A stretch of DNA of 64,000 nt, taken from positions 124,001 to 188,000 of the forward strand of contig NZ_JAHXBG010000015.1 in the NCBI RefSeq assembly GCF_020103725.1, written 5' to 3'. Position 1 is the stretch's first letter; every line of letters starts with the position of its first letter. The notes beneath the pieces are model-generated. The model had not been told where the DNA came from. It worked only from the letters and a program-made list of their open reading frames with translations, and did no database searches. The translations under genes and the position numbers were made by a program. The stretch comes from Hyalangium gracile. Lineage in GTDB: Bacteria > Myxococcota > Myxococcia > Myxococcales > Myxococcaceae. Positions 14,191 through 43,162 of this stretch are shown piece after piece.

Positions 14191-14265
<75 letters not shown>

Positions 14266-14339: not shown

Positions 14340-14414
<75 letters not shown>

Positions 14415-25233: not shown

Positions 25234-26256
25234 GTGCGCCGATCCGAGTTAGCACTGGCCCTCATCCTGCTGGTCCTGCTGCCCATGTCCTGCTTCGTCC
25301 TCTGGTTCGACATCCAGACGACGTACGACGTCGTGCGGCAGTTCCGCTCCGTGAGCTACCCGAGCGTCCCGGGAACCATCACCGTCAGCGAGCTGGACGC
25401 GTTCCGGAAGCCCAAGGGCGGTGGCCAGGCCTACGCCTTCCGGGTGCGCTACACCTACGAGGTCGGCGGCCAGAAGCTCGAGGGCAGCCGGGTCCGCTAC
25501 GTGACGGGGCGCTCGCGCGAGCACGCCCCCGCGAAGGCCCTGTCCAAGCGCTTCCCGCTGAACGCCCAGGTGCCGGTGTACTACGACGCGGACGATCCCA
25601 AGGACGCGCTCCTGGATCCGGGCGGGAACGGACCGGACCTGCTGTACCCCATGTATCCCGGGCTGTTCACCATCCTGACGCTCATCGGCTGGTGCCTCGC
25701 GGCGATGATGCGGCGCGAGCCCACGGACATCCCCGAGTTCGAGCGCAACGGCCGCATCCACCTCACGGTGTTCGCCCTGCCCCCCTCCCTCATCGGCGTC
25801 TTCGGGGCGGGGATTGCCGTGTTTGTGGGGATGGGCTTCTGGTTCAGCGACTCCGTGTTTCCGATCTCCACGGCCATCACCATCTGGGCGTCCGTGTTCC
25901 TCGCCGGAGGAGCCGCGGCGCTCGTGCAGAAGCTTCGCCTGCGCTCGGGTGTGTACGACGTGATCCTCGACGATCAGACGGTCTCCCTGCCCGCGACCCA
26001 TGGCCGGCGGCGGAGGGTCCAGGTGCCGCGGCAACAGATCGTGACGGTCAGCCTCGATCGCCAGGGCCAGCAGAAGAAGGCCTACCGTCCCACGCTGGAG
26101 TTCCTCCACCCGGGCGGAGGCTCTCGCCTCGAGCCCATCGGCCCGTGGATGACGGACCAGGACAAGGCCCAGGCTCTGGCGGACGCGCTGAAGATCCGGC
26201 TGAGGCTCATGGAGCGTCAGGCGAAGGCAGCTGCGCCGGCCCGCTCCGCCCGCTGA
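25234..26256 (+). CDS. DUF3592 membrane protein
   Basis: Protein of 340 residues with a GTG start. The first helix is residues 5-24 (ELALALILLVLLPMSCFVLW). A DUF3592 domain follows (SYPSVPGTITVSELDAFR...YAFRVRYTYEVGGQKLEGSRVRYV...VPVYYDADDPKDALLDPG), an extracytoplasmic beta domain of unknown role. Further helices lie near 138-157 and 180-225. The C-terminal part (VYDVILDDQTVSLPATHGRRRRVQVPRQQIVTVSL) is cytoplasmic or PH-like. It ends 3 bp before the convergent DUF2156-like gene. Function unknown. Confidence 0.85.
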   Translation: MRRSELALALILLVLLPMSCFVLWFDIQTTYDVVRQFRSVSYPSVPGTITVSELDAFRKPKGGGQAYAFRVRYTYEVGGQKLEGSRVRYVTGRSREHAPAKALSKRFPLNAQVPVYYDADDPKDALLDPGGNGPDLLYPMYPGLFTILTLIGWCLAAMMRREPTDIPEFERNGRIHLTVFALPPSLIGVFGAGIAVFVGMGFWFSDSVFPISTAITIWASVFLAGGAAALVQKLRLRSGVYDVILDDQTVSLPATHGRRRRVQVPRQQIVTVSLDRQGQQKKAYRPTLEFLHPGGGSRLEPIGPWMTDQDKAQALADALKIRLRLMERQAKAAAPARSAR

Positions 26257-26259
26257 GCC

Positions 26260-27249
26260 TCACTCCAGGAAGGTGCGGCGGAGGATGCCCGTGAACGGCA
26301 CGCGGCAGGCACGCAGCAGCGCCAGGAGTGTCGTCACGGCCCACGGGGACGGCGTCACGAAGTAGCGCTGGGGCGTCAGTCCCGGGAAGGCCTCCTTCAT
26401 CGCCCGGAGTCGAGCCAGGTACTCGATTCCGGCGAGCTGGCGCTCCATCCAGCGCACCTGGCGAGCCAGCACGGGCGAGCAGCCCTCGGTGTCCACATCG
26501 ACGAGCGGGCAGAACCCCAGCGAGAGCTGTCGGAGGCCCTCCTCCCTCAGGAGCGAGGCCAGCGTCGAGACAGCCGAGTAGTACACCCCCCACAGCCGGG
26601 TCCGCTCGAAGCGGATGAGGTTGAGCAGGTAGCCCTGGATGCGGCCGCCATCGAAGTACGGGTCGAGCACCGCGTAGCCGAACACCTGTCCCTCGGAGCC
26701 CTGCCGCAGGACGAACAGGCGGGCGAGCCCGTCATCGTCGAACGACAGCGGGCGGTTGAGGAAGTGCATCTCCACGGGCACCGAGCTCCGGCGCAGGTAG
26801 CTGCGAGTGATGGACTCGAGCCTCCCTCGCTCCTCGGCGCTCAGGGTGGCCGGTCGGACCTCGCGAACCTCGAAGCCGCCGCGCGAGGCCTTCTTGAGCG
26901 CTCCCCTCACCCTCGGGTGGACCTCCGAGCCGGAGGGGTCGAGCGCCATCACCTTGTCCACCCCCATGCCGCTGACGCGAAACCGGGGGCCTCCGCGCTC
27001 GGCCACGAGCATCGCGACGTCCCGGGGCACGTAGAAGAACAGCGGGCTGCGGCGGCTGCTCAGGAAGCGCTGGATCATCTCCGCGCGATCGCCGCTCGCG
27101 CAGACGGGAGGTCCGAGCGTCAGGTCGAACCCGAAGGCACGCTGGAAGGCCACATAGCCGAAGGAGGTCTCGAAGTAGGAGAGCCCGGCCTGGAGCGTCG
27201 AATAGGAGATCGGATCCGAGCCATGGGCTCGCACCAGGTTGTGCCTCAC
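26260..27249 (-). CDS. DUF2156/GNAT-like protein (lysyl-PG synthase C-terminal fold)
   Basis: Protein of 329 residues resembling the DUF2156 family, the double GNAT fold found in phosphatidylglycerol lysyltransferases. It reads HNLVRAHGSDPISYSTLQAGLSYFETSFGYVAFQRAF..., then FRVSGMGVDKVMALD and ALKKASRGGFEVREV, and later QGYLLNLIRFERTRLWGVYYSAVSTLASLL. There is no membrane flippase domain, so it would be a soluble transferase, possibly using aminoacyl-tRNA or acyl donors. The start is probably the GTG at 27249, which overlaps a TGA in a GTGA after an 11-codon mini-frame; this is uncertain. It diverges from the B12-radical SAM gene and may belong to the same pathway. Confidence 0.7.
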   Translation of the reverse strand: MRHNLVRAHGSDPISYSTLQAGLSYFETSFGYVAFQRAFGFDLTLGPPVCASGDRAEMIQRFLSSRRSPLFFYVPRDVAMLVAERGGPRFRVSGMGVDKVMALDPSGSEVHPRVRGALKKASRGGFEVREVRPATLSAEERGRLESITRSYLRRSSVPVEMHFLNRPLSFDDDGLARLFVLRQGSEGQVFGYAVLDPYFDGGRIQGYLLNLIRFERTRLWGVYYSAVSTLASLLREEGLRQLSLGFCPLVDVDTEGCSPVLARQVRWMERQLAGIEYLARLRAMKEAFPGLTPQRYFVTPSPWAVTTLLALLRACRVPFTGILRRTFLE

Positions 27250-27420
27250 GCCTGCACCAGAGCTCCGAAGTCGGCGGTCATCCGCTGGGAGTGAGTTTCG
27301 TTGACGCTCCGTCCGATGAGCAAGCCCGCCCTGCCCCACCGCCAAGCAAGGGGCCAGGAGGTTGCGGTATCGTTAGAGCACTCACGCCTCGACTCCTTCG
27401 GGGCGGTTCAGGGGGAAGTA

Positions 27421-29010
27421 GTGAAGCGCCTCAAGGTCGGCGTCGTGGAGCTGCTGGCGCACTCGGTCACCACTCCGCACCTGCGCCGCCGCGTCATCGC
27501 TCCCGGGACGGCCTCGGTCATGCCGCAGGCCGTGGCGGTCTGGGCGGAGGAGCTCGGCTGCGAGGTGCATTACGCCGTCTGGACCGCGCAGGAGGCGCTC
27601 CTCCGGCTGCTCCCCGAAGAGATGGACGTCGTCTTCATCTCCGCGTTCACGCGAGCGTCGTTCGTCGCGTATGCGCTCTCCGGCCACCTGCGCTCGAGAG
27701 GCACGGTGACCGTGCTGGGAGGCCCCCACGCCCACGCCTTCGCGGAGCACGCGCGCGATCACTTCGACTACATCTGCCAGGTCACGAATCGCGAGCTGAT
27801 CGCCGACCTGCTCCGAGCCCCCGAGCGCCAGGAGCGCGGCGTAGTCCTGTCCGCCGACGAGGGCCCCACGGACCTGCCCGGCGTCATCCAGCGCACGCGG
27901 TTCATCGACCACTGCATCCAGAAGGGCTCGGGGGTGCTGCGGGTGGTGCCGATGCTCGGCAGCCTGGGCTGTCCGTACACCTGCAGCTTCTGCGTGGACG
28001 CGCCCACGCGGTGGCGAGGACTGCCGGTGCAGCCCCTGATCGAGGATCTGCGCCACATCGAGCGCCGCTGGGGCGAGGACACGTTCGTGGGCTGGCACGA
28101 CCCGAACTTCGGTGTCCGCTTCGATGAGTACCTGGGAGCCATCGAGGCCTCGGCCACGCGGCTGGGGCACGGCGCCCACATGAGCCTGTCGCTGATGAGC
28201 GGAGCGAATGCGCGCCGGCTCGGGCAGGCGCGGTTCGGGCTGCTGGGGCCGGGCGTCGAGTCGTGGTTCGACTTCTCCGACAAGTCGGGGCGCGCGCGGC
28301 TGCTGGGAGAGTCCAAGGTCCGCCACGTCGCCGAGACCCTGAACACCGTCCAGGCCGAGGTGCAGCACGTCCAGACGAACATGATCGTGGGGCTGGACAC
28401 GGACCAGGGCGACCTGCCCTGGGAGCTGACGAAGCGGCTCGTGGAGCTCTCCCCGGGCATCTACCCGACGTACTTCCTGGTGACGAACTTCTACAACGCG
28501 CCGCTCAGCCGCGAGCTGCACGCCTCCGGACGCACGCTGGCCATGCCGTTCCCGCTGCTGGACACCAACTGCTTCGGCAACGTGCGACCGCTGCACTACT
28601 CCCCGACCGAGCTCTACGACCGGCTCATCGATCTGTACGAGTTCGCCTACTCCTGGCGAGCCGTCCTCCGCCGCACGCGAGTGACGCCCGGTGGCTGGGG
28701 GAAGGTGGTGAACTTCGGCCGCAGCGTGGACGAGGGGCGAGGCTTCATCGACTTCCACAAGCGCATCCGCGCGCGCCTGGACACGGACCGCGAGCTGCGC
28801 GAGTTCTACGAAGGCGCGCGCGAGGCACCGCCCACGTCCTTCATGAACGAGGTGAAGGAGCAGCTCGGGCCCTACCGCGAGCTCCTCCCCGAAACGCTCT
28901 TCTGGCCCGAGCGCTACGCCGAGTCGTTCCGGGCCTCCGCCGAGGCAGCCGTGCGAACGATCCGCGAGCCCATGGCAGGCACGGTTCCCCGGGAGCGCGC
29001 GGCCTCGTGA
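27421..29010 (+). CDS. B12-binding-domain radical SAM enzyme
   Basis: Enzyme of 529 residues. The N-terminal third looks like a cobalamin-binding domain (LKVGVVELLAHS...PQAVAVWAEELGCEVHYAVW...DVVFISAFTRASFVAYALSGHLRSRGTVTVLGGPHAHAF), and the radical SAM core has C184-x3-C188-x2-C191 (LGCPYTCSFCVD) for the 4Fe-4S cluster, then a TIM-barrel-like part (VQTNMIVGLDTDQG) and a C-terminal extension. Such proteins methylate unactivated carbons or rearrange substrates; no reaction is predictable here. The GTG at 27421 follows AGGGGGAAGTA. It is followed by a minus-strand unknown gene and an operon that includes a second radical SAM gene. Confidence 0.9.
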   Translation: MKRLKVGVVELLAHSVTTPHLRRRVIAPGTASVMPQAVAVWAEELGCEVHYAVWTAQEALLRLLPEEMDVVFISAFTRASFVAYALSGHLRSRGTVTVLGGPHAHAFAEHARDHFDYICQVTNRELIADLLRAPERQERGVVLSADEGPTDLPGVIQRTRFIDHCIQKGSGVLRVVPMLGSLGCPYTCSFCVDAPTRWRGLPVQPLIEDLRHIERRWGEDTFVGWHDPNFGVRFDEYLGAIEASATRLGHGAHMSLSLMSGANARRLGQARFGLLGPGVESWFDFSDKSGRARLLGESKVRHVAETLNTVQAEVQHVQTNMIVGLDTDQGDLPWELTKRLVELSPGIYPTYFLVTNFYNAPLSRELHASGRTLAMPFPLLDTNCFGNVRPLHYSPTELYDRLIDLYEFAYSWRAVLRRTRVTPGGWGKVVNFGRSVDEGRGFIDFHKRIRARLDTDRELREFYEGAREAPPTSFMNEVKEQLGPYRELLPETLFWPERYAESFRASAEAAVRTIREPMAGTVPRERAAS

Positions 29011-29034
29011 CGGCGGGCACGAGCCCCGGAAGGC

Positions 29035-29661
29035 TCATCCGCCTGGCGTCGGGGCCAGCTCCGGCTCCACGGGAAGCTGGAGGCAGTACCGCCCGAAGCC
29101 GATGAGCGAGCTGAAGTGAGGATGGAGATCCGCCGGGTACTCGAAGCGACGGGCGGCTCGGGCGAGGTCCGCGAGGTGGCCGTGATACCCGCCAGCGATG
29201 GCCGAGAGCATGAACGCCAGAGGGTCCTCCCCGGAGGCAACCTGCTCCGCGGAGCGCTCGAGCAGCTCGAGTCCTCCGGGGTACGACTGGAGCAGCTGCA
29301 GGTCGTAGGCAATCACCCCGTCCTCATGGAAGGCGGACAGCAGGTGCCTGACCAACGTGTCCGGAGTGGCGAGCAACCCGTTCCAGACAATCGCCTGCTG
29401 CGGGCAGTAGAGGAGCTGCAGCGGCACCCGCAGCGGCACGTAGCCCCAGAGGCTCTGACGGTTGGCGGCGTGCTCGATGGGCGTCTCGTTGAACGCGAAC
29501 GGCACCATCTCGACGGTGGCGAGCGTCACCTGCTTCGGATGAGGCACCGCGTCCAGCAGCCCATGCGAGACGAAGAACTGGAACCGGGCCTGCCAGCCAT
29601 CGGCCTGCCACAAGCCGAGCCGATGCCCCAGCTCGAACCACCGCTGCACCTTGGATGTCAT
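29035..29661 (-). CDS. Conserved protein of unrecognised family, paralogue A
   Basis: Protein of 208 residues that I do not recognise. It is clearly related to the protein encoded at 31374-31991: shared features are a start FFVSHG, VPLRVPLQLLY (79-85 for VPLQLLY), PxxxIRH/VRHLLS, FHED (111-114), AYDLQLLQS (119-126) and PGGLELL, then a Tyr/His-rich GYHGHLADL and FxSLIGFGRYC. The conserved His and acidic residues could be ligands for metal or a reaction site. No signal peptide or membrane helix. It is transcribed toward the B12-radical SAM gene and divergently from the SDR operon across 44 bp. Confidence 0.75.
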   Translation of the reverse strand: MTSKVQRWFELGHRLGLWQADGWQARFQFFVSHGLLDAVPHPKQVTLATVEMVPFAFNETPIEHAANRQSLWGYVPLRVPLQLLYCPQQAIVWNGLLATPDTLVRHLLSAFHEDGVIAYDLQLLQSYPGGLELLERSAEQVASGEDPLAFMLSAIAGGYHGHLADLARAARRFEYPADLHPHFSSLIGFGRYCLQLPVEPELAPTPGG

Positions 29662-29705
29662 GGGAAGTTTGTCGCGCCTGCCCCCCTACTCTAGAACAGG
29701 GAGCC

Positions 29706-30488
29706 ATGAGCCGAGAACCCCGCGTGCGGATGTACAGGACGGCGCTCGTCACCGGCGCCTCGAGCGGAATCGGGCGCGGGCTCTCGGCCTGGCTCGCCCG
29801 CCGTGGAGTGAAGGTGTTCGGCGCGGCCCGTCGCATGGAGGAGCTCGAAGCGCTCGCGCGGGAGCTCCAAGGACAGGGAGAGATCGTCCCGGTACGGATG
29901 GATGTGGCCAACGCCCAGGAGACCCGCGAGGCCATCCGCGCCATCGATGAGCAGTGTGGTGGGCTCGAGCTCGTCGTGGCGAATGCCGCGGTCGCGCCGG
30001 AGACGCCCGGGGATGCGCTCGACTGGAGCGCACTGGAGCAGATCCTCGACGTCAACGTGCGCGGGGCCGCCGCCACCCTGAGCGCGGTGGCGGATCGGAT
30101 GGTGTCGCGAGGAGCGGGCCACCTGGTGGGCATGTCATCCCTCTCGGACGTGCGAGGGATGCCGCACAATGGCGCCTACAGCGCGTCCAAGGCCTTCCTC
30201 TCCACCTTCTTGGAGGGACTGAGAGTCGATCTGGCCCCTCGGGGAGTGAAGGTGACGACCATCCGCCCCGGGTTCGTGAAGACGCCCGGCACCGAGGGCA
30301 ACCACTTCAAGATGCCCTTCCTGCTCGAGCTCGACGACGCCGTCGATCGCATCGGCCGAGCCCTGCTGCGCGGCGTGTCCGAGCACTCGTTCCCCTGGCA
30401 GGCAGCCACCGCCGCCAGGCTGTTCCAGGTGATTCCGAACGGGCTCTGGGACCGCGCGGCGCGCGGCTTCGACCCCGAGCGCGAGTAA
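29706..30488 (+). CDS. Short-chain dehydrogenase/reductase
   Basis: Classical SDR of 260 residues. The cofactor motif is TALVTGASSGIGRGL (TGxxxGIG), followed by VVANAAVAPE (NNAG equivalent), Ser in MSSLSD and the catalytic Y-x-x-x-K in YSASKAF. An Arg after the first strand (AARRMEELE) suggests NADP(H) preference. The ATG at 29706 has AGGGAG upstream. It is the first gene of the operon that continues with a diiron protein, paralogue B, a PlsC-like acyltransferase, a HemN-like radical SAM enzyme and a zinc-ribbon protein. Likely role: keto or hydroxy group chemistry in the same pathway. Confidence 0.93.
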   Translation: MSREPRVRMYRTALVTGASSGIGRGLSAWLARRGVKVFGAARRMEELEALARELQGQGEIVPVRMDVANAQETREAIRAIDEQCGGLELVVANAAVAPETPGDALDWSALEQILDVNVRGAAATLSAVADRMVSRGAGHLVGMSSLSDVRGMPHNGAYSASKAFLSTFLEGLRVDLAPRGVKVTTIRPGFVKTPGTEGNHFKMPFLLELDDAVDRIGRALLRGVSEHSFPWQAATAARLFQVIPNGLWDRAARGFDPERE

Positions 30489-30522
30489 CGCACGAAGGAT
30501 CCGTGGCATAGTCTCGGGGGAG

Positions 30523-31374
30523 ATGAAGGGGGCAGAGTTGAAGACGAACGCACGGGCGTCATCTGGCGCGGGCCACTCCCCGGATGAGCCGCCGGATCCC
30601 TACCTCGAGCGCCTGTGCGAGCTGGCGGCACGCGATCAGTGGAAGCTCGAGGAGCTCGACTGGAGCTCGCTCGATCTCCTGTCCCTCCCTGAGCTGTTCA
30701 GGCAGACCGCGGCGGATGGCTTCGCCCAGCTCCTCTGGGGCGAGCGGACCGCGGAGCTCGCGGCGTCGCGCTTGATGGAGCTCCTCCCCGACGGCGCCGC
30801 TCGGACGTTCATCGCGACGCAGCGGACGGATGAGGCTCGCCACGTCGCCTTCTTCGAGCGGGTCATCCACCTCCTCGGCTGCGAGGGGCGGACGCGGCCC
30901 TCGGTCCAGCGGCTCATGCGCGAGGTGCAGGAGGCCGAGACGCCCGAGGAGCTGATGCTGGGCATGCAGATCCTCATCGAGGGCATCGCGCACTCCCTGT
31001 TCCTGGAGGCCGCGCGAGTGGTGGGCTCCTTCGGAGAGGGAGACGAGCTCGACCGGCCGCTCCAGGCGCTGAAGACGGTGATCGGCGGGTGGATGCCGCG
31101 GCTGCTGGCGCGCGACGAGAGCCGTCACATCGCGTTCGGGTTGCACGCCCTGCGCCAGAGCATTCCCCGGCTCGACCGCGCGGAGCGCCTCCGTCTCGAG
31201 GAGAAGGTGACGCTCTGGGGAGCGCTGGTGCTCGAGCAGGCGCGAGATCCGGACCTCGTCTACGGCGTCGGCGTGGATGGCGAGGAGGTCTGCCGGCGGC
31301 TGATCGACGATCTGAACCTCCGCATCGGTCAGGTCGGGCTCGAGACGCGGATTGCGCCCTTGAAGGCGGCGTGA
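30523..31374 (+). CDS. Ferritin-like diiron oxygenase-type protein
   Basis: Protein of 283 residues with a four-helix diiron signature: E74 and E78 (LLWGERTAELAA), E104-x-x-H107 (QRTDEARHVAFF), E153 with H157 (ILIEGIAHSLFLEAARV) and E199-x-x-H202 (LARDESRHIAF). The spacing of Glu and ExxH pairs matches R2/AurF-like oxygenases and ferritin-like enzymes rather than storage ferritins. It could hydroxylate, N-oxidise or desaturate a substrate. The ATG at 30523 has GGGGAG directly against it, so a TTG at 30538 is an alternative start. Its stop overlaps the next ATG (TGATG), so translation of the two is coupled. Confidence 0.85.
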   Translation: MKGAELKTNARASSGAGHSPDEPPDPYLERLCELAARDQWKLEELDWSSLDLLSLPELFRQTAADGFAQLLWGERTAELAASRLMELLPDGAARTFIATQRTDEARHVAFFERVIHLLGCEGRTRPSVQRLMREVQEAETPEELMLGMQILIEGIAHSLFLEAARVVGSFGEGDELDRPLQALKTVIGGWMPRLLARDESRHIAFGLHALRQSIPRLDRAERLRLEEKVTLWGALVLEQARDPDLVYGVGVDGEEVCRRLIDDLNLRIGQVGLETRIAPLKAA

Positions 31375-31991
31375 TGGGCACCGAGCACCTCCTCCAGGAG
31401 CGGATCGGCTTCTTCGTCCAGCACGGCTACCTGAAGCGCGTGCCGACGCCATGGCAGGTCAAGGTGGGCTGGTTCGCGATGCTCCCCGTCACCCTGAGCG
31501 AGAGCGATCGGGAGCGCGAGCGCAGCCGGAGCACGCTGATGGGTCAGGTGCCGATCCGCGTGCCGCTGCAGCTCCTCTACAACCCGCGACAGCTGCTCGT
31601 GGACACGGGGCTCACCAGCCGCCCGGAGCACATCATCCGGCACGTGCTGAGCGTGTACCACGAGGATGCATTCCTCGGTTACGACCTGCAGCTGCTGCAG
31701 TCCCACCCGGGCGGCCTGGCGCTGCTGCGCGAGGAGGCCACCAAGGTCGTCGAGGGCAGGACGCTCTGGGCGCCCTATCTGCGCAAGCTGGTGGGCTGGC
31801 CGGGCTACCACGCGCGCCTGGCCGAGCTGACCGAGGACGCCGAGCGCTTCATCTATCCGGACCCGCTGGACGTGGATCCGCGCTTCGCGTCGCTCGTGGG
31901 CTTCGCGGAGTTCTGTAACTCGATGCCCGACTGGCCCGAGCGTGGGTTCTACGGCTTCGATCTCGAGAGGATTGTCTCCCGGTGGAAGTGA
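31374..31991 (+). CDS. Conserved protein of unrecognised family, paralogue B
   Basis: Protein of 205 residues related to the protein at 29035-29661. Shared elements are GFFVQHGYL, VPIRVPLQLLY (VPLQLLY at 63-69), RPEHIIRHVLSVYHED (YHED 95-98), GYDLQLLQSHPGGLALL (YDLQLLQS 103-110) and GYHARLAEL...FASLVGFAEFC. No known domain is recognised. It overlaps the diiron gene upstream (TGATG) and the acyltransferase downstream (10 bp), so it is tightly coupled in the operon and may form a complex with either product or with paralogue A. Confidence 0.78.
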   Translation: MGTEHLLQERIGFFVQHGYLKRVPTPWQVKVGWFAMLPVTLSESDRERERSRSTLMGQVPIRVPLQLLYNPRQLLVDTGLTSRPEHIIRHVLSVYHEDAFLGYDLQLLQSHPGGLALLREEATKVVEGRTLWAPYLRKLVGWPGYHARLAELTEDAERFIYPDPLDVDPRFASLVGFAEFCNSMPDWPERGFYGFDLERIVSRWK

Positions 31992-32773
31992 AGCCCGGCG
32001 ATCTGGAGGCGTGCGATCCGGAGTTCCAGCGGCGCCATGCCGGCTGGATCACGCGCGCCCTGCACACCTGGTTCCGGGTCGACGTGCGAGGCATGGAGCA
32101 CCTGCCCCAGGGTCCGTTCGTCGGCGTGGGCAACCACGGCGGCGCGGCCCTGATTCCGGACACGCTGGTGTGGGTGGGCACGTACCACACGTCGGGCCGC
32201 AAGCCGCCGCTGGTGACACTGGCCCATGACGGGATGTTCGACGCGTACCCGCGGCCGCTCGCGAGCGCCCTGGCGAAGCTCGGGGCCGTGCGAGCCCGGC
32301 GGGAGATCGCGGTCGAGGCGCTCCGCCGAGGCTACGCGGTGCAGGTGTACCCGGGAGGAGACCACGACGCGTGCAGGAGCTTCTTCCGGAGGAACGAGAT
32401 CGTCTTCGCCGGACGCAAGGGCTACGTCGAGCTGGCGCGTGAGGCCGGCGTGCCAATCGTGCCGGTGGTCTCGGTGGGCGGGCACGAGGCGCTGATCGTC
32501 CTCTGGGACGGAGTGCCGCTCGCGAGCAGGCTCGGACTGGACCGCCGCTTCCGCCTGAAGGCGTTCCCGCTGACCTGGAGCCTCCCGTGGGGGCTGTGGC
32601 TGGGGCCGCTGCCGGGTTACCTGCCGCTGCCCGCGAAGATCCGCGTGCGAGTGCTGCCGCCGATCTTCCCCGAGGGTGACGACATCGACGCAATTGACGC
32701 CCGCGTGCGAGCATCCATGCAGCACGCGGCCAACGAGCTGGCGAGGGAGCAACGCTTCCCATGGATCGGATGA
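31982..32773 (+). CDS. PlsC-like (lysophospholipid/DGAT-type) acyltransferase
   Basis: Acyltransferase of 263 residues. The catalytic block is GVGNHGGAALIPDT, where the usual HX4D is replaced by H followed by D at +8, as in some actinobacterial lysophospholipid acyltransferases. Further blocks match that family: TLAHDGMFDAY, LGAVRARREIAVEALRRGYAVQVYPGGDHDA, FAGRKGYVELAREAGVPIVPVVSVGGHEAL and LPWGLWLGPLPGYLPLPAKIRVRVL. It should transfer a fatty acyl chain to a glycerolipid or related hydroxyl acceptor at the membrane. A GTG start overlaps paralogue B by 10 bp, and the gene overlaps the HemN-like gene by 13 bp. Confidence 0.88.
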   Translation: MEVKPGDLEACDPEFQRRHAGWITRALHTWFRVDVRGMEHLPQGPFVGVGNHGGAALIPDTLVWVGTYHTSGRKPPLVTLAHDGMFDAYPRPLASALAKLGAVRARREIAVEALRRGYAVQVYPGGDHDACRSFFRRNEIVFAGRKGYVELAREAGVPIVPVVSVGGHEALIVLWDGVPLASRLGLDRRFRLKAFPLTWSLPWGLWLGPLPGYLPLPAKIRVRVLPPIFPEGDDIDAIDARVRASMQHAANELAREQRFPWIG

Positions 32774-34239
32774 AGCTCTTCAGGTTCGACGAGGCGCTGG
32801 ACGTGAACACGGCGACGGAGCGCGAGCTCGGGGCGCGGCTGGAGCGGCTCTGGGACAAGGAGCCGCTGCTGCGTCCGCGGCCGGAGATGCATGACTACCA
32901 GCTCACCTACCCGCCCGCGGTGCAGATGGAGAAGCGCGAGGGGTACCGACGCGCGCCGAGTGACGAGGAGTACCTGCGCGACGCGGTGGGCGCCTTCGAC
33001 GCGGCCGGCTACTACTTCCACTTCGGCTTCTGCAAGTACCGCTGCCGCTACTGCTTCCACTACGAGCTGCTGACGAAGCACCAGGACGCGCTGATGGCGC
33101 GGTATGTGGATGCGCTGTCGCTGGAGATGCGGCGCGTCCGCGAGCTGACGCCCACGATCAAGCCCGCGCTGTTCTTCCTGGGAGGCGGCACGCCCACGGC
33201 GCTGCCCACGTACCTGCTGGAGCGGTTCCTGCGAAACCTGCTGTTCCACTTCGGGCCACCGGCGACGACGATGAGCACCGTCGAGGCGAAGCCGGTCACG
33301 GCCTCGGACGACAAGCTCCAGGCGCTGGTGCAGGCGGGCTTCCGGCGCATCAACCTCGGGGTGCAGACGCTGGACCCGGAGCTGTACGCCTTCCACCACC
33401 AGAAGGAGGAGATGCGCGTCGCGCTCGACGCCATCGAGCGGGCCCGGCGCAGCGGGTTCGAGTTCATCAACATCGACATCATGACGGGGCTGGAGCGCCA
33501 GACGCCCGAGTCCTGGCGGAAGACGCTCGCGGAGCTGGAGCGGCTGGCGACGAGCGGCGCGGTGGACAGCGTCTTCATCTACCCGTACCACGACGATCCG
33601 CGCAGCGGCACCTACGGCAAGCCGGGGGCGGTGCCCTCCTTCGTGCAGACGGCGCACAGCGACGCGCAGGCGCGGGCGCTCTTCACGCGGCTGGGCTGGA
33701 AGGAGCTGGGAGCGCGGTTCTACCGCTCGCCCCGGCACGTGAGGCGCGAGCTGTTCGAGCTGGCCAGGGTGCGCGTGAACCCCGCGTATGGCGAGGTGCT
33801 GTACCACGGGCTGGGAAACTCCAGCTTCTCGATTGGCGACCGGGCCACGTTCCTGAACCACCGCGACGTGAACGACTACTGCACGGCGGTGGAGAAAGGC
33901 GGGCTGGGCATCGCGTACTGGCGGACGCTGGATGATTCTCAGCGGGCGACGCGGGATGTGACGTTCGACCTGCTCTACAGCCCGTTCACGCGGGTGCGCT
34001 CGCGCGCGAAGAAGTATGGCGCGGAGACGATGGCCCACCATCGCAAGCAGCTCGAGCGCTGGGCGGAGCTGGGGCTGGGCGAGGAGAACCGGCTGCTCGG
34101 CACGTTCTCGCTGACGCCCCTGGGCAAGCTGGTGCACCAGCAGATGCTCCCGCAGCACTACCTGGCAGAGGATCGCCGCGAGTTGGACGAGGCCATGCAG
34201 CAGCGCCAGCAAGCAGGCCGGCGCTACCGCGGCTACTGA
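32761..34239 (+). CDS. HemN-like radical SAM enzyme
   Basis: Enzyme of 492 residues in the HemN-like radical SAM superfamily. The cluster motif C91-x3-C95-x2-C98 (HFGFCKYRCRYCFHY) is followed by FFLGGGTPTALPTYLL, STVEAKPVTASDDKLQALVQAGFRRINLGVQTLD and FINIDIMTGLERQTPESW, all typical of the family. HemN-like proteins include coproporphyrinogen dehydrogenases, haem chaperones and class C radical SAM methylases or cyclopropanases. In this context, away from haem genes and next to an acyltransferase, a tailoring role is more likely. The ATG overlaps the acyltransferase; a zinc-ribbon gene follows 14 bp later. Confidence 0.9.
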   Translation: MDRMKLFRFDEALDVNTATERELGARLERLWDKEPLLRPRPEMHDYQLTYPPAVQMEKREGYRRAPSDEEYLRDAVGAFDAAGYYFHFGFCKYRCRYCFHYELLTKHQDALMARYVDALSLEMRRVRELTPTIKPALFFLGGGTPTALPTYLLERFLRNLLFHFGPPATTMSTVEAKPVTASDDKLQALVQAGFRRINLGVQTLDPELYAFHHQKEEMRVALDAIERARRSGFEFINIDIMTGLERQTPESWRKTLAELERLATSGAVDSVFIYPYHDDPRSGTYGKPGAVPSFVQTAHSDAQARALFTRLGWKELGARFYRSPRHVRRELFELARVRVNPAYGEVLYHGLGNSSFSIGDRATFLNHRDVNDYCTAVEKGGLGIAYWRTLDDSQRATRDVTFDLLYSPFTRVRSRAKKYGAETMAHHRKQLERWAELGLGEENRLLGTFSLTPLGKLVHQQMLPQHYLAEDRRELDEAMQQRQQAGRRYRGY

Positions 34240-34253
34240 CGCCAGACCACCAC

Positions 34254-35258
34254 ATGACACGCATCATCGAGGACACCCTGCAGTGTTTCGTGTGCGGCGC
34301 GAAAAGCCAGCAGCGACAGCTCGCCAGCACCCACGAGCACGGCTCCCCCGACCTGGACGGCAGGCCCGCGGAGGAGGCGCGCTCGACCATGCCCGAGTGG
34401 GTCCAGACCTGTCCCCGGTGTGGATACTGCGCGCCCGAACTCTCTCGGGGCCACGAGTCCTCACGAGCCCTGGTGCGCAGCCCGGCTTACCAGGCGCAGC
34501 TCCGCGCACAGGACTCCCCGTTGCTCGCGAACCGCTTCCTCTGCGCGGCGATGGCGTGTGACGCGGCAGGGCGGGACGTGGATGCCGCCCATCACCGCCT
34601 GCACGCGGCCTGGGTCGCGGACGATGAAGGAAGGCCCGAGCTTGCCCGCCAATACCGCTCCGCCGTCGCGGACGCGTTGCTCGCTCGACGAGAAGCCCTA
34701 CGCGCATGGAGGGCGGGCGATGGCGACTGGAAGGGCGCCGAAGTGACCTTCCTCGTGGACGTGCTGCGCAGAGCCGGCCGTTTCCAAGAGGCCCTGCGCG
34801 AACTGGAGAACGCGCTCCAGAAGGGAGTCTCCAGCATCGTCCGGGAGATCCTTCGCTTCGAGCGCTCGGCCATCGAGCGGGGTGATGCGGGAGGCCATCG
34901 CCTGGCCGAAGCCCTCTCTGGTTCCGTCCTGCGCGAGGATCCGCGCGACGACGACCCTCTGCTCGGCTACCTCCTCTCGCACTGCGGCGACTTCGTTACT
35001 CCACAGGAGAACAAAGCAGCCTTCACCGGAACGCTGCGGACACCCGAGGGCGAGCGCTGGGCCACGGATGATCCCCAGGTGCTGACGCTGCTGGCCCACG
35101 GAAAGAAGGCCTTCACGGCCGCTCTCGAGAAAAGGTTGCTCGCGGACCACCCGGACAAGGTCGTCATCAACCGCTGCCCGAAGTGTGGCGGCATCGCCCG
35201 GACGCCCAAGGCCCGGCAGTGCCGCTTCTGCCACCACTCCTGGCACGACAAGCGCTGA
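34254..35258 (+). CDS. Zinc-ribbon protein of unknown function
   Basis: Protein of 334 residues with a zinc ribbon at each end: CFVCG (11-15) with CPRCGYCAPE near residue 54, and CPKCGG...QCRFCHHSW at the C-terminus. The middle is helical and TPR-like (RPELARQYRSAVADALLARREALRAWRAGDGDWKGAEVTFLVDVLRRAGRFQEALRELENALQ). It resembles DUF2225-type proteins only loosely. Spacing of 14 bp after the HemN-like gene places it last in the operon; a dispersed hairpin follows. Cytoplasmic, with a scaffold or nucleic-acid role inferred only from fold type. Confidence 0.7.
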   Translation: MTRIIEDTLQCFVCGAKSQQRQLASTHEHGSPDLDGRPAEEARSTMPEWVQTCPRCGYCAPELSRGHESSRALVRSPAYQAQLRAQDSPLLANRFLCAAMACDAAGRDVDAAHHRLHAAWVADDEGRPELARQYRSAVADALLARREALRAWRAGDGDWKGAEVTFLVDVLRRAGRFQEALRELENALQKGVSSIVREILRFERSAIERGDAGGHRLAEALSGSVLREDPRDDDPLLGYLLSHCGDFVTPQENKAAFTGTLRTPEGERWATDDPQVLTLLAHGKKAFTAALEKRLLADHPDKVVINRCPKCGGIARTPKARQCRFCHHSWHDKR

Positions 35259-35289
35259 GCCGGGAGGCTCGACCCGCCGAGGACCTGTT

Positions 35290-35319
35290 CCGAACTGGTA
35301 TGACAAGCATACCGGTTCG
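35290..35319. repeat. Dispersed hairpin repeat, copy 2
   Basis: The arm CGAACTGGTATG (35291-35302) and the arm CATACCGGTTCG (35308-35319) pair over 12 positions, one being a T-G wobble in RNA, with a 5-nt ACAAG loop. The first 18 bases are identical to 12387-12404. It lies 31 bp after the zinc-ribbon stop codon, where a terminator is expected, but no T-run follows. Confidence 0.75.
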
Positions 35320-35357
35320 TGCGGACCGAGCCCGACGAGGCGCCTCCCGGGCCGCGC

Positions 35358-37313
35358 TCAGATGTTCACGGTCCCCTCGGCCAGCTGCGGCAGGCCGGGG
35401 TGGTTCGTGACGAGCAGCACCTGAGTCAGCGTGCCCAGGTGCTTGAGCATCCGGCCGATCAGCGGCAGCTTCACCTCGTCCATGCCGGCGAACGGGTGCT
35501 CCAGGATGAACGGGTACTTCACCCGGGCGCTCACCTTCTCCACCACCGTCATCCGCAGCGCCAGGTAGTACATGTCCATGTCTCGAGGAGGGATCTCCCC
35601 CACCCCGAGTTGCTGGCCCGGCACGAACACCGAGCCCAGGCCGTCCTTGTCCCACTCGACGCCCAGGTAGCGCCGATCCGTGAGGGCGCTCAGGTACTGG
35701 GTGCACCGGTCCCGCAGCAGCCCCGCCACCGTGGGCACGTCCATGGACAACAGATCCGCGGCCACCTTCATCAGCACCGGGGACGGGTCCTCCATCGGCC
35801 CCGAGGCCGCCCCCATGCCAGGATCCGCGGCTCCCGCCGCCATGGGCACCGCTCCGGACTTCGCCAGCGCGATGGACTCCTTCGTCCGGGAGAGCTCCCG
35901 CTCCACCTCGCGCAGATCGCGCACGAACGAGCCCTTCTTCCCGATCTCCGCGTTGAGCTGCTCGATCTGCTCCTTGATGGAGTCGCGCTGCTGCCCCGCT
36001 GCCACGTACTCCGGATCGGACTCCATGGCCGTGAGCTGATCGCGCAGCTCGGTGAGCCGCTGCTCCAGCAGCCCCTTGCGCTCGAACATGGCGGGGATCT
36101 CCTCGGGCGTCTCCACATCGAGCGCCTTCAGAGCCCTGCGCACCGGCGCGGCATCGACCTCGAACTCCTCGAGGATCTTCTTCTCGCGCGCGGAGAACAT
36201 GCCCTCCTTGCTGCGCACATTCGACGTCTTCGACAGATCGTCCACGTACCGCAGCGCCACCATCGCCGCCCACCCGAAGGCGGGGATGTCCAGCAGCGTC
36301 AGGTAGCGCCACCCCGTGTCCAGCACCGCGCCCAGGATGATGCCCATCAGCAGGAACAGCGATCCGGCGCCCACCCCCACCCAGAAGAGGGGGTTCTTCT
36401 TCAACGGCTCCACGGCCACGGGCGCCGCCTGCGCCTCCTGCTCGCGCTCCTGCGCCAGCCGGTTCAGCGCATCCTCCCGCCGAGCCACCGCCTTGGGGTA
36501 GCGCTCCACGCGGGTGAGGATGTCGGCCGGCAACCCCAGCGACTCAGGCGTGGGCGCCGCGTTCCACGCGTTCTCCGCGTCGCGCACGGCCACCCGGAGG
36601 CCCTCGGTGCTCTTCAGCTTCCGCTCCACCTCGAAGAGCTGCGAGTTGAGGCCGTCCAGCTTGAACTGGAGATCCTCCATCACTCGCGACTTCACGAGCT
36701 CCTCCTCCAGCTCCTTGAGCTTCGCCTCGGCAGCGGGGATGTCCTCCGCGGGCGCCACGGCCTGGGTGCTGGCCAGTCCAGACAAGGAAGGGTTGCTGCC
36801 CAGGGCGGGCATGCCGGGATGACTCCCGCCCACGCCCGGCAGCGACGGACGCTTCAGATCCGGCTTGGAGGTGCGCACCCGTGGCTTGCGTGAGGGCATC
36901 TGCCCGGGCGTCAGCGAGTACACGTGCTCCCAGGCCGTGCGCGACGGCAGGCCCACCTGCGCTCGCAGGAACTGGGCGATCTCCGTCGAGTCCTGGGACA
37001 CCAGCTCCGGCGGTTGGCCCGGCGCCGTCTGCTTGTGCAGCGTCCCCACCCCGCCCAGATCCCGCAGCAGGCGGTAGGTGAGGTTGTCCTGGCCCACCAG
37101 GGTGAGGGCCGCCTTGGCGGCCTTCTGGCCCTGTGCCGCGAACCGGGCGTCCTCGCCGCGCCCATCGGCATACAGGAGCGCCAGCGAGAGCGCCGCCAGC
37201 GGGCTGATCTCACCACCGGGCGGCTTGAGGACGAGGAAGCCCTGCTTGAAGGGGAAGCGGCCCTGCGGGGAGAAGCCCCGGACGTTCTGGACGGCGACCT
37301 CGGTGAAGTGCAT
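35358..37313 (-). CDS. SMC-like coiled-coil protein lacking Walker A
   Basis: Protein of 651 residues shaped like a small SMC/RecF-type ATPase. The N-terminus (MHFTEVAVQNVRGFSPQGRFPFKQGFLVLKPPGGEISPLAALSLAL) aligns with the opening strand of such ATPases, but the GxxGxGKS loop is replaced by KPPGGEISP. The C-terminus keeps a Walker-B-like segment (FILEHPFAGMDE, LLVTNH). Between them are coiled coils (AAEAKLKELEEELVKSR..., RLTELRDQLTAMESD...) and two membrane helices near 310-360 (PLFWVGVGAGSLFLLMGIILGAV). A membrane-bound, nucleotide-binding-deficient relative is the best reading. Start could also be the ATG at 37325. Confidence 0.75.
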   Translation of the reverse strand: MHFTEVAVQNVRGFSPQGRFPFKQGFLVLKPPGGEISPLAALSLALLYADGRGEDARFAAQGQKAAKAALTLVGQDNLTYRLLRDLGGVGTLHKQTAPGQPPELVSQDSTEIAQFLRAQVGLPSRTAWEHVYSLTPGQMPSRKPRVRTSKPDLKRPSLPGVGGSHPGMPALGSNPSLSGLASTQAVAPAEDIPAAEAKLKELEEELVKSRVMEDLQFKLDGLNSQLFEVERKLKSTEGLRVAVRDAENAWNAAPTPESLGLPADILTRVERYPKAVARREDALNRLAQEREQEAQAAPVAVEPLKKNPLFWVGVGAGSLFLLMGIILGAVLDTGWRYLTLLDIPAFGWAAMVALRYVDDLSKTSNVRSKEGMFSAREKKILEEFEVDAAPVRRALKALDVETPEEIPAMFERKGLLEQRLTELRDQLTAMESDPEYVAAGQQRDSIKEQIEQLNAEIGKKGSFVRDLREVERELSRTKESIALAKSGAVPMAAGAADPGMGAASGPMEDPSPVLMKVAADLLSMDVPTVAGLLRDRCTQYLSALTDRRYLGVEWDKDGLGSVFVPGQQLGVGEIPPRDMDMYYLALRMTVVEKVSARVKYPFILEHPFAGMDEVKLPLIGRMLKHLGTLTQVLLVTNHPGLPQLAEGTVNI

Positions 37314-42259: not shown

Positions 42260-43162
42260 CTAGCGGTTCTTCTTGGGGGCGCCGCGCTTGAGCGCCTCCT
42301 GGAGCGTGGTGCCCAGCTCCGTGGGGCTGGCGGCCATGAGGAAGCCGGCGGCCTCCATGGCCTTGATCTTCTCCGAGGCGGTGCCCTTGCCGCCGGAGAT
42401 GATGGCGCCCGCGTGGCCCATGCGCTTGCCCGGAGGCGCGGACTGGCCCGCGATGAAGCCGGCGATGGGCTTGGTGAACTCGCGCGCCACGTACTCGGCG
42501 GCGGCCTCCTCGGCGCTGCCGCCGATCTCGCCGATCATGATGACGGCGTCCGTCTCCGGATCGGCGTTGAACAGCTTGAGGCAGTCGATGAAGTCCGTGC
42601 CGTTGACCGGATCACCGCCGATGCCCACCGCGGTGCTCTGGCCCAGGCCCAGCTGGGTGAGCTGGTGCACGGCCTCGTACGTCAGCGTGCCCGAGCGCGA
42701 CACCACGCCGATGCGGCCCGGCTTGTGGATGTGGCCCGGCATGATGCCGATCTTGCACTTGGCGCCCGGGGTGATGACGCCGGGGCAGTTGGGGCCGATG
42801 AGGCGAATGCCCGGCTTGCCCTGCAGGTAGCGCTTGGCGCGCACCATGTCGTTGACGGGGATGCCCTCGGTGATGGTGATGATGAGGGCGACGCCCGCAT
42901 CAGCGGCCTCCATGATGGAGTCCGCGGCGAACGGCGGCGGGACGAAGATGACGGAGGTGTTGGCGCCCGTCTGCTTCACCGCGTCGGCCACGGAGTTGAA
43001 GACGGGGACCTTGCCCTCGAAGTCGGTGCCGCCCTTGCCCGGGGTGACGCCGGCCACCAGCTTCGTGCCGTACTCCAGCATCTGCTTGGAGTGGAACGAG
43101 CCCGCCGAGCCCGTGATGCCCTGGCAGAGGACCTTCGTGTTCTCGTTGACGAGGATGCTCAT
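42260..43162 (-). CDS. sucD: Succinyl-CoA synthetase subunit alpha
   Basis: Alpha subunit of 300 residues of the TCA enzyme that couples succinyl-CoA hydrolysis to NTP formation. The CoA-binding Rossmann region is [35 protein letters not shown], and the phospho-His loop is [21 protein letters not shown]. The start at 43162 gives [12 protein letters not shown], the family N-terminus. It follows sucC by 35 bp. Confidence 0.97.

Follow-up and report, generated by a model that had tools for sequence, protein, structure and literature searches.

A patchily distributed four-gene core with a HemN-like radical SAM enzyme and a protein family that lacks a model

Which of the nine genes packed into positions 26260 to 35258 of a 64,000-nucleotide stretch of Hyalangium gracile DNA (contig NZ_JAHXBG010000015.1, positions 124,001 to 188,000 of the forward strand; the whole stretch is called the window here) act together, and what might they make? 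A sequence-only reading had treated all nine as a single biosynthetic or lipid-modification locus. Judged from the ORF (open reading frame) list and translation, all nine ORFs are real, and the motifs assigned to them exist, but the conserved unit is smaller. It is a four-gene core, comprising lpgC, parB and the genes for a PlsC-type acyltransferase and a HemN-like radical SAM (S-adenosylmethionine) enzyme. Four other genes, encoding a short-chain dehydrogenase/reductase (SDR), the parB paralogue parA, a B12-type radical SAM enzyme and a diiron protein, are optional, and a zinc-ribbon gene is confined to the window; hence, the idea of a nine-gene unit was rejected. That a conserved functional gene unit exists is very likely. 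Third-position GC picked eight of the nine ORFs (window GC is 68%), and parB was read separately. The genes are as follows.

26260..27345, minus strand: lpgC, standalone LPG_synthase_C/DUF2156 transferase (PF09924, 89.1 bits); core
27301..29010, plus strand: B12-binding-type radical SAM enzyme, conserved part from about 27424; accessory
29035..29661, minus strand: parA, second paralogue of the helical parB family, which has no model; accessory
29706..30488, plus strand: SDR (PF00106, 5e-44); accessory
30523..31374, plus strand: AurF-type diiron protein (PF11583, 35.7 bits) with four Glu and two His ligands; accessory
31374..31991, plus strand: parB, predicted all-helical, no Pfam or NCBIfam model; core
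31982..32773, plus strand: PlsC/DAGAT-type acyltransferase (PF01553, 46.9 bits; PF03982, 28.3 bits); core
32761..34239, plus strand: HemN-like radical SAM enzyme (PF04055, 71.9 bits; C91-C95-C98); core
34254..35258, plus strand: zinc-ribbon protein with four CXXC motifs; bystander

Distribution and divergence of the core

Whole-genome searches covered 195 genomes, all from the Myxococcota. The HemN-like profile scored >1100 bits in six genomes and ≤108 bits in every other, and the same six gave high scores for parB (>370 bits) and lpgC (>625 bits); the PlsC-type gene was counted in fetched loci only. A scan of a contig collection (84,980 species) relied on two short peptide patterns, YYFHFGF and YAFHHQK, and therefore may have missed more distant members. 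It returned six loci: two known carriers (a Myxococcaceae metagenome-assembled genome, MAG, and Myxococcus vastator), three new carriers (MAGs labelled Proteobacteria, Sandaracinaceae and Polyangiaceae), and a Bacteroidetes match (25% identity over 181 residues) beside which the other cluster genes were not found. The three MAG loci all carry parB and the HemN-like gene, and two of them also carry the PlsC-type gene and lpgC, at 61–72% identity (∼42% for lpgC).

Across the nine carriers, the HemN-like gene and parB are each present in 9/9 and the PlsC-type gene and lpgC each in 8/9; lpgC is found in every locus (8/8) whose contig extends to its position. HemN-like proteins from all nine loci are 67–90% identical to the window copy. 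In the most distant complete carriers (L072 and L073), the cluster takes its simplest form, lpgC-parB-PlsC-HemN on a single strand. Checking for co-occurrence of both paralogues, the diiron protein and the two radical SAM enzymes, as proposed earlier, gave a split result: parB and the HemN-like gene are always kept, whereas the diiron gene occurs in 5/9 loci (and is missing in at least three), the B12-type gene in 3/9, and parA in 2/9, as does the SDR gene. Only two of the nine loci contain parA and parB together. The earlier reading of a zinc-ribbon protein agrees with its CXXC motifs, but its place in the pathway did not stand, as the window is the only one of the nine loci to encode it and no counterpart was found by tblastn in the examined stretches of the other eight.

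The possibility that the genes would prove scattered in relatives had been raised; instead, the core co-occurs syntenically in nine genomes, and its members diverge in step. Pairwise-distance matrices for the four core proteins, computed over eight taxa, are correlated at 0.87–0.98; when labels were permuted 5000 times, the observed value was attained 14 times at most. For all cluster genes except that of the zinc-ribbon protein, dN/dS (the ratio of nonsynonymous to synonymous substitution rates) lies between 0.16 and 0.39 in comparisons of the window with G002 and/or G109, and these eight genes are under purifying selection.

Gene spacing is also tight. The run at 29706–35258, previously counted as five consecutive overlapping or nearly touching genes, contains six, with spacings of 34, −1, −10, −13 and 14 bases. 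The 10-base overlap of parB with the PlsC-type gene and the 13-base overlap of the latter with the HemN-like gene are found both in the window and in G002 (there estimated from match ends).

Core proteins and their possible product

What could such a core produce? We tentatively favor, at a level somewhat short of probable, a patchily distributed biosynthetic operon whose product would be an acylated, and probably aminoacylated, small molecule, formed with a radical one-carbon (C1) transfer or C–H step and subject to lineage-specific tailoring. All chemical steps in this scheme are inferred, and so are its reliance on tRNA and the lipid character of the product. Like its characterized relatives, LpgC would take an aminoacyl group from aminoacyl-tRNA and transfer it to a small acceptor, and the PlsC-type enzyme would attach a fatty acyl group. 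The radical step would fall to the HemN-like enzyme, the likeliest chemistry being either C1 transfer (methylation or cyclopropanation) or an oxidative C–H reaction, and ParB would be a further, probably metal-dependent, enzyme of the core. Tailoring in particular lineages could involve the diiron oxidase, the B12-type radical SAM enzyme (through another C-methylation), and the SDR together with ParA. The co-occurring core fits the pathway part of the earlier proposal; the lipid part of that proposal traces only to the PlsC-type acyltransferase and to the distant resemblance between the DUF2156 protein and aminoacyl-phosphatidylglycerol synthases.

Pfam scores bear out the DUF2156, SDR, PlsC-type and HemN-like assignments. 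LpgC exceeds the PF09924 cut-off of 27.5 bits more than threefold, and it can be aligned across most of its length with the solved synthase domains of MprF/LpiA and AlaPGS in the Protein Data Bank (PDB), with its invariant residues K292 and R302 matched by a Lys and an Arg in the MprF/AlaPGS domains. Because conserved homology begins at about residue 32 of ORF 26260..27345, the true start of lpgC probably lies inside it. In the PlsC-type protein, the motifs NH(S/G)GxxxIPD and YPGGD are invariant in eight sequences; no PDB relative was found by sequence. Strongly hydrophobic segments are absent from the cluster proteins, save for two marginal windows in the PlsC-type protein.

These two enzymes raise the alternative of membrane-lipid remodelling, in which LpgC would aminoacylate a glycerolipid, the PlsC-type enzyme would re-acylate it, and the radical SAM enzymes would modify its acyl chains; the outcome would be a changed bulk membrane and not a specialized metabolite. 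The relatives of LpgC are indeed aminoacyl-phosphatidylglycerol synthases, a PlsC/DAGAT acyltransferase belongs to the core, and lpgC is the sole LPG_synthase_C match in the window genome; in five of the six carriers, another match outside the cluster scores higher. However, LpgC shares with MprF and AlaPGS the PF09924 catalytic domain and differs in having no flippase part (no 19-residue window exceeds a hydropathy of 1.6), in adjoining a radical SAM gene, and in falling far below the cut-off of the NCBIfam MprF equivalog (27.3 of 600 bits). The patchy distribution (6/195) also better suits a specialized product, and we consider remodelling unlikely. Ornithine and glycine lipid synthesis (OlsBA, GlsBA) likewise pairs a GNAT-fold transferase with a PlsC-type acyltransferase, but LpgC belongs to PF09924, with no OlsB-type family named by the Pfam and NCBIfam scans, and we know of no counterpart of the radical SAM enzymes or of ParB in those systems.

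The HemN-like protein scores well above the Radical_SAM cut-off (29.5 bits), has its CX3CX2C motif at residues 91–98, as noted before, and also contains GGGTPT. Both motifs are shared with HemN, NocN and the STM4012 family, and PDB profile matches include HemN (1olt, 5e-25) and the methyltransferase NocN (9p2u). The protein nonetheless remains far below the NCBIfam cut-offs for HemN (TIGR00538, 114.2 of 324.95 bits), STM4012 (NF006067, 133.8 of 380 bits) and HutW (112 of 400 bits); by these scores, it is a subfamily of its own. An AlphaFold model of this protein was poor (predicted local distance difference test, pLDDT, of 57) and was not used. Were the locus instead a haem-related operon, with the HemN-like enzyme handling a porphyrin and its neighbors there by chance, the profile similarity to HemN would be explained. 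Yet the TIGR00538 score is about a third of that needed, the core contains no haem gene, and 189 of the 195 genomes have a HemN-like match, with at least two in each of the six carriers besides the cluster copy. Moreover, lpgC and the PlsC-type gene accompany the HemN-like gene in all eight loci whose contigs permit checking. We regard this account as hardly credible.

ParB and ParA had been described as two paralogues of an unrecognized family, and so they are: ParA is 45–49% identical to ParB sequences, and no Pfam or NCBIfam model matched more than one of 14 members, the best, chance-like E-values being 0.0063 (Pfam EAD2) and 0.002 (an AmpC model). No credible PDB relative of ParB was found by sequence. 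Its AlphaFold model is all-helical (pLDDT 73), with no hydrophobic segment, and a Foldseek search with this model gave 73 matches at E ≤ 10 and none at 0.001; the best VIA Z was 3.3. Six residues, H90, H96, D104, H146, R52 and R62, are invariant in 14 aligned sequences, even where identity is as low as 27%. This pattern hints at a site for catalysis or metal binding and makes ParB a probable metal-dependent enzyme. The alignment includes six distant relatives (27–32% identical), near which the other core genes were not found in the examined stretches (some short, 3,981 to 17,001 bases), and omits a seventh, G045, which is a contig-end fragment. Two distant relatives adjoin 47%-identical GntR/FCD regulators (L033, 826-2543; L034, 8056-9848), and a third lies near an acyl-CoA dehydrogenase gene (L035); we take these settings as hints only.

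The diiron protein has the full Glu/His ligand set reported earlier, E74, E104, H107, E153, E199 and H202, and all six are invariant in eight aligned sequences. It passes the AurF cut-off (29.6 bits), and its PDB profile matches include chains labelled as ribonucleotide reductase small subunit (1e-9), R2lox (7qbk, 8e-6) and a ‘putative VlmB homolog’ (6d9f, 7e-5); against the NCBIfam R2lox equivalog, it reaches at best 25.2 of 194 bits. On this basis, it is an AurF-type ferritin-like diiron oxidase in the broad sense.

ParB and the diiron protein bring in the most interesting rival, a divergent N–N bond or azoxy pathway. Here, LpgC would act like VlmA on a hydroxylamine, ParB would replace VlmO as hydrazine synthase, the diiron protein would be VlmB-like, and the HemN-like and PlsC-type enzymes would tailor an aliphatic chain. 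According to two sources (PMC12945691, PMC9379638), VlmA takes a seryl group from tRNA and attaches it to a hydroxylamine, with PF09924 serving as the family model in one study. The valanimycin (vlm) and azodyrecin (ady) systems resemble the locus in having an LPG_synthase_C-type transferase, a likeness at the family level only, and their diiron or ferritin-like oxidase (VlmB/Ady8) may have a counterpart in the diiron protein. PMC9379638 and PMC11705231 are the source of the VlmA and VlmB/Ady8 assignments and describe VlmO mutagenesis pointing to D51, H82, H110 and D114, residue types that recall the invariant His and Asp residues of ParB. Several observations argue against this pathway. The diiron gene is not a core gene, given its absence from at least three loci; the R2lox-labelled chain outscores the VlmB homologue; and ParB has no hydrophobic segment. 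A Pfam scan of the ten proteins at 25234–35258 revealed no flavin monooxygenase that could correspond to VlmH/VlmR, and the window core has the HemN-like and PlsC-type enzymes. DUF4260 (PF14079), the VlmO-like family, is absent in 6/6 carriers searched, although this model catches Ady6 itself only weakly, as stated in part of PMC9379638. Altogether, we judge an azoxy pathway distinctly unlikely.

Several findings also weigh against the acylated, aminoacylated product and the operon that we favor. One genome (G011) contains a lone lpgC relative (435 bits, 54%) without the other core genes, and distant parB relatives occur without the core in seven further genomes. The contig of one carrier, the Polyangiaceae MAG (L074), begins at parB, has neither the PlsC-type gene nor lpgC in the 10 kb examined, and shows no PlsC-type gene between parB and the HemN-like gene. 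Similarity of LpgC to aminoacyl-lipid synthases is distant (PDB E-values of 1e-7 to 7e-3), PlsC-type enzymes also serve housekeeping lipid synthesis, and correlated distances can arise from common species history alone. The diiron protein has many distant homologues, with matches at E ≤ 0.001 in 11 of 20 near relatives. Lastly, a scan for promoters and terminators gave results at chance level (0 promoter-like sites versus 0.4 expected).

Accessory genes and the genomic site

The B12-type assignment holds in part. The CX3CX2C motif is there, at 183–190 if the protein is read from base 27424, and is invariant in five homologues, but both Pfam matches of ORF 27301–29010 are below the gathering thresholds (B12, 24.5 of 32.1 bits; radical SAM, 21.8 of 29.5 bits). 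The alignment omits the G110 copy, which reads through one TGA, and no PDB relative was found by sequence. The enzyme is encoded in three of the six Myxococcota carriers, and homologues of 43–51% identity lie outside any cluster in three other genomes; around the distant relatives L092–L094, matches to other window genes were not found in the examined stretches. PMC9692996 gives sp2 or sp3 carbons as the targets of class B (B12) radical SAM methylases, and sp2 carbons as those of the class C (HemN-like) methylases.

The window SDR has a close homologue (77%) at one other locus. In two genomes of the genus of M. vastator, a gene pair for a FAD-binding oxidase and an SDR adjoins the cluster (L029, 3053-5206; L030, 3878-6034). 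By eye, we take this pair to resemble DprE1/DprE2; its SDR is just 31–34% identical to that of the window. In the Polyangiaceae MAG, the next gene after the HemN-like one, at a distance of ∼24 bases, is acyl-carrier-protein-phosphodiesterase-like (L074, 2180-2806; PF04336, 23.3 of 27 bits).

In the window genome (G000) and G002, the cluster sits between an SMC-like gene and yraN-rsmI. Of the remaining five genomes in the genus, four (G001, G003, G004 and G005) have this junction closed, with the SMC and yraN matches either overlapping or separated by 12 bases, and in G006 it holds two unrelated genes, by eye an FAD-dependent oxidoreductase and a TetR-type regulator. The cluster is present or absent as a block at this site, and the simplest account is that it was inserted in the G000/G002 lineage. 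In other carriers, no match to SMC, yraN or rsmI was seen beside the cluster in the examined stretches. As extra genes occupy the junction in three of seven genus genomes (the cluster in two, the other genes in G006; L095 3372-5234 versus window 25313-35358), insertions may recur there. In a plasmid collection, parB was not found, HemN-like matches occurred in 397 records, none spanning 80% of the query, and DUF2156-type matches occurred in nine records (22–29% identity).

Rfam and ARAGORN scans found no Rfam family or tRNA inside 26260–35258. Elsewhere in the window, two tRNA-Met genes of equal Rfam score stand in tandem on the minus strand (14191-14265 and 14340-14414, 74 bases apart). A tRNA-Ala (GGC) called by ARAGORN on the plus strand (42292-42386) lies within an ORF of high third-position GC (42273-42830), is not reported by Rfam, and is probably false.

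Novelty and meaning of the core

The sequence-only reading knew of no described pathway with this gene set, and we likewise found none in the open-licence literature, judged by titles and abstract openings. All families here are known except that of ParB, which is the newest part. A bolder reading, which we hold to be doubtful, is that the core represents an undescribed class of aminoacyl-tRNA-dependent lipid natural products, in which the HemN-like enzyme would build or alkylate the acyl chain and ParB, possibly a soluble equivalent of the N–N-forming VlmO, would be the first member of a new family of metalloenzymes.

With only four genes, the core makes a small target that can be tested genetically, and a named strain, Myxococcus vastator AM301, carries it. 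It brings together an acyltransferase, a transferase whose family is tRNA-dependent, a HemN-like radical SAM subfamily that is unclassified, and a protein family that has no model. Should the product be an aminoacylated lipid modified by radical chemistry, HemN-like chemistry would be extended to lipids; if it is an N–N compound, the core would provide a soluble alternative to VlmO.

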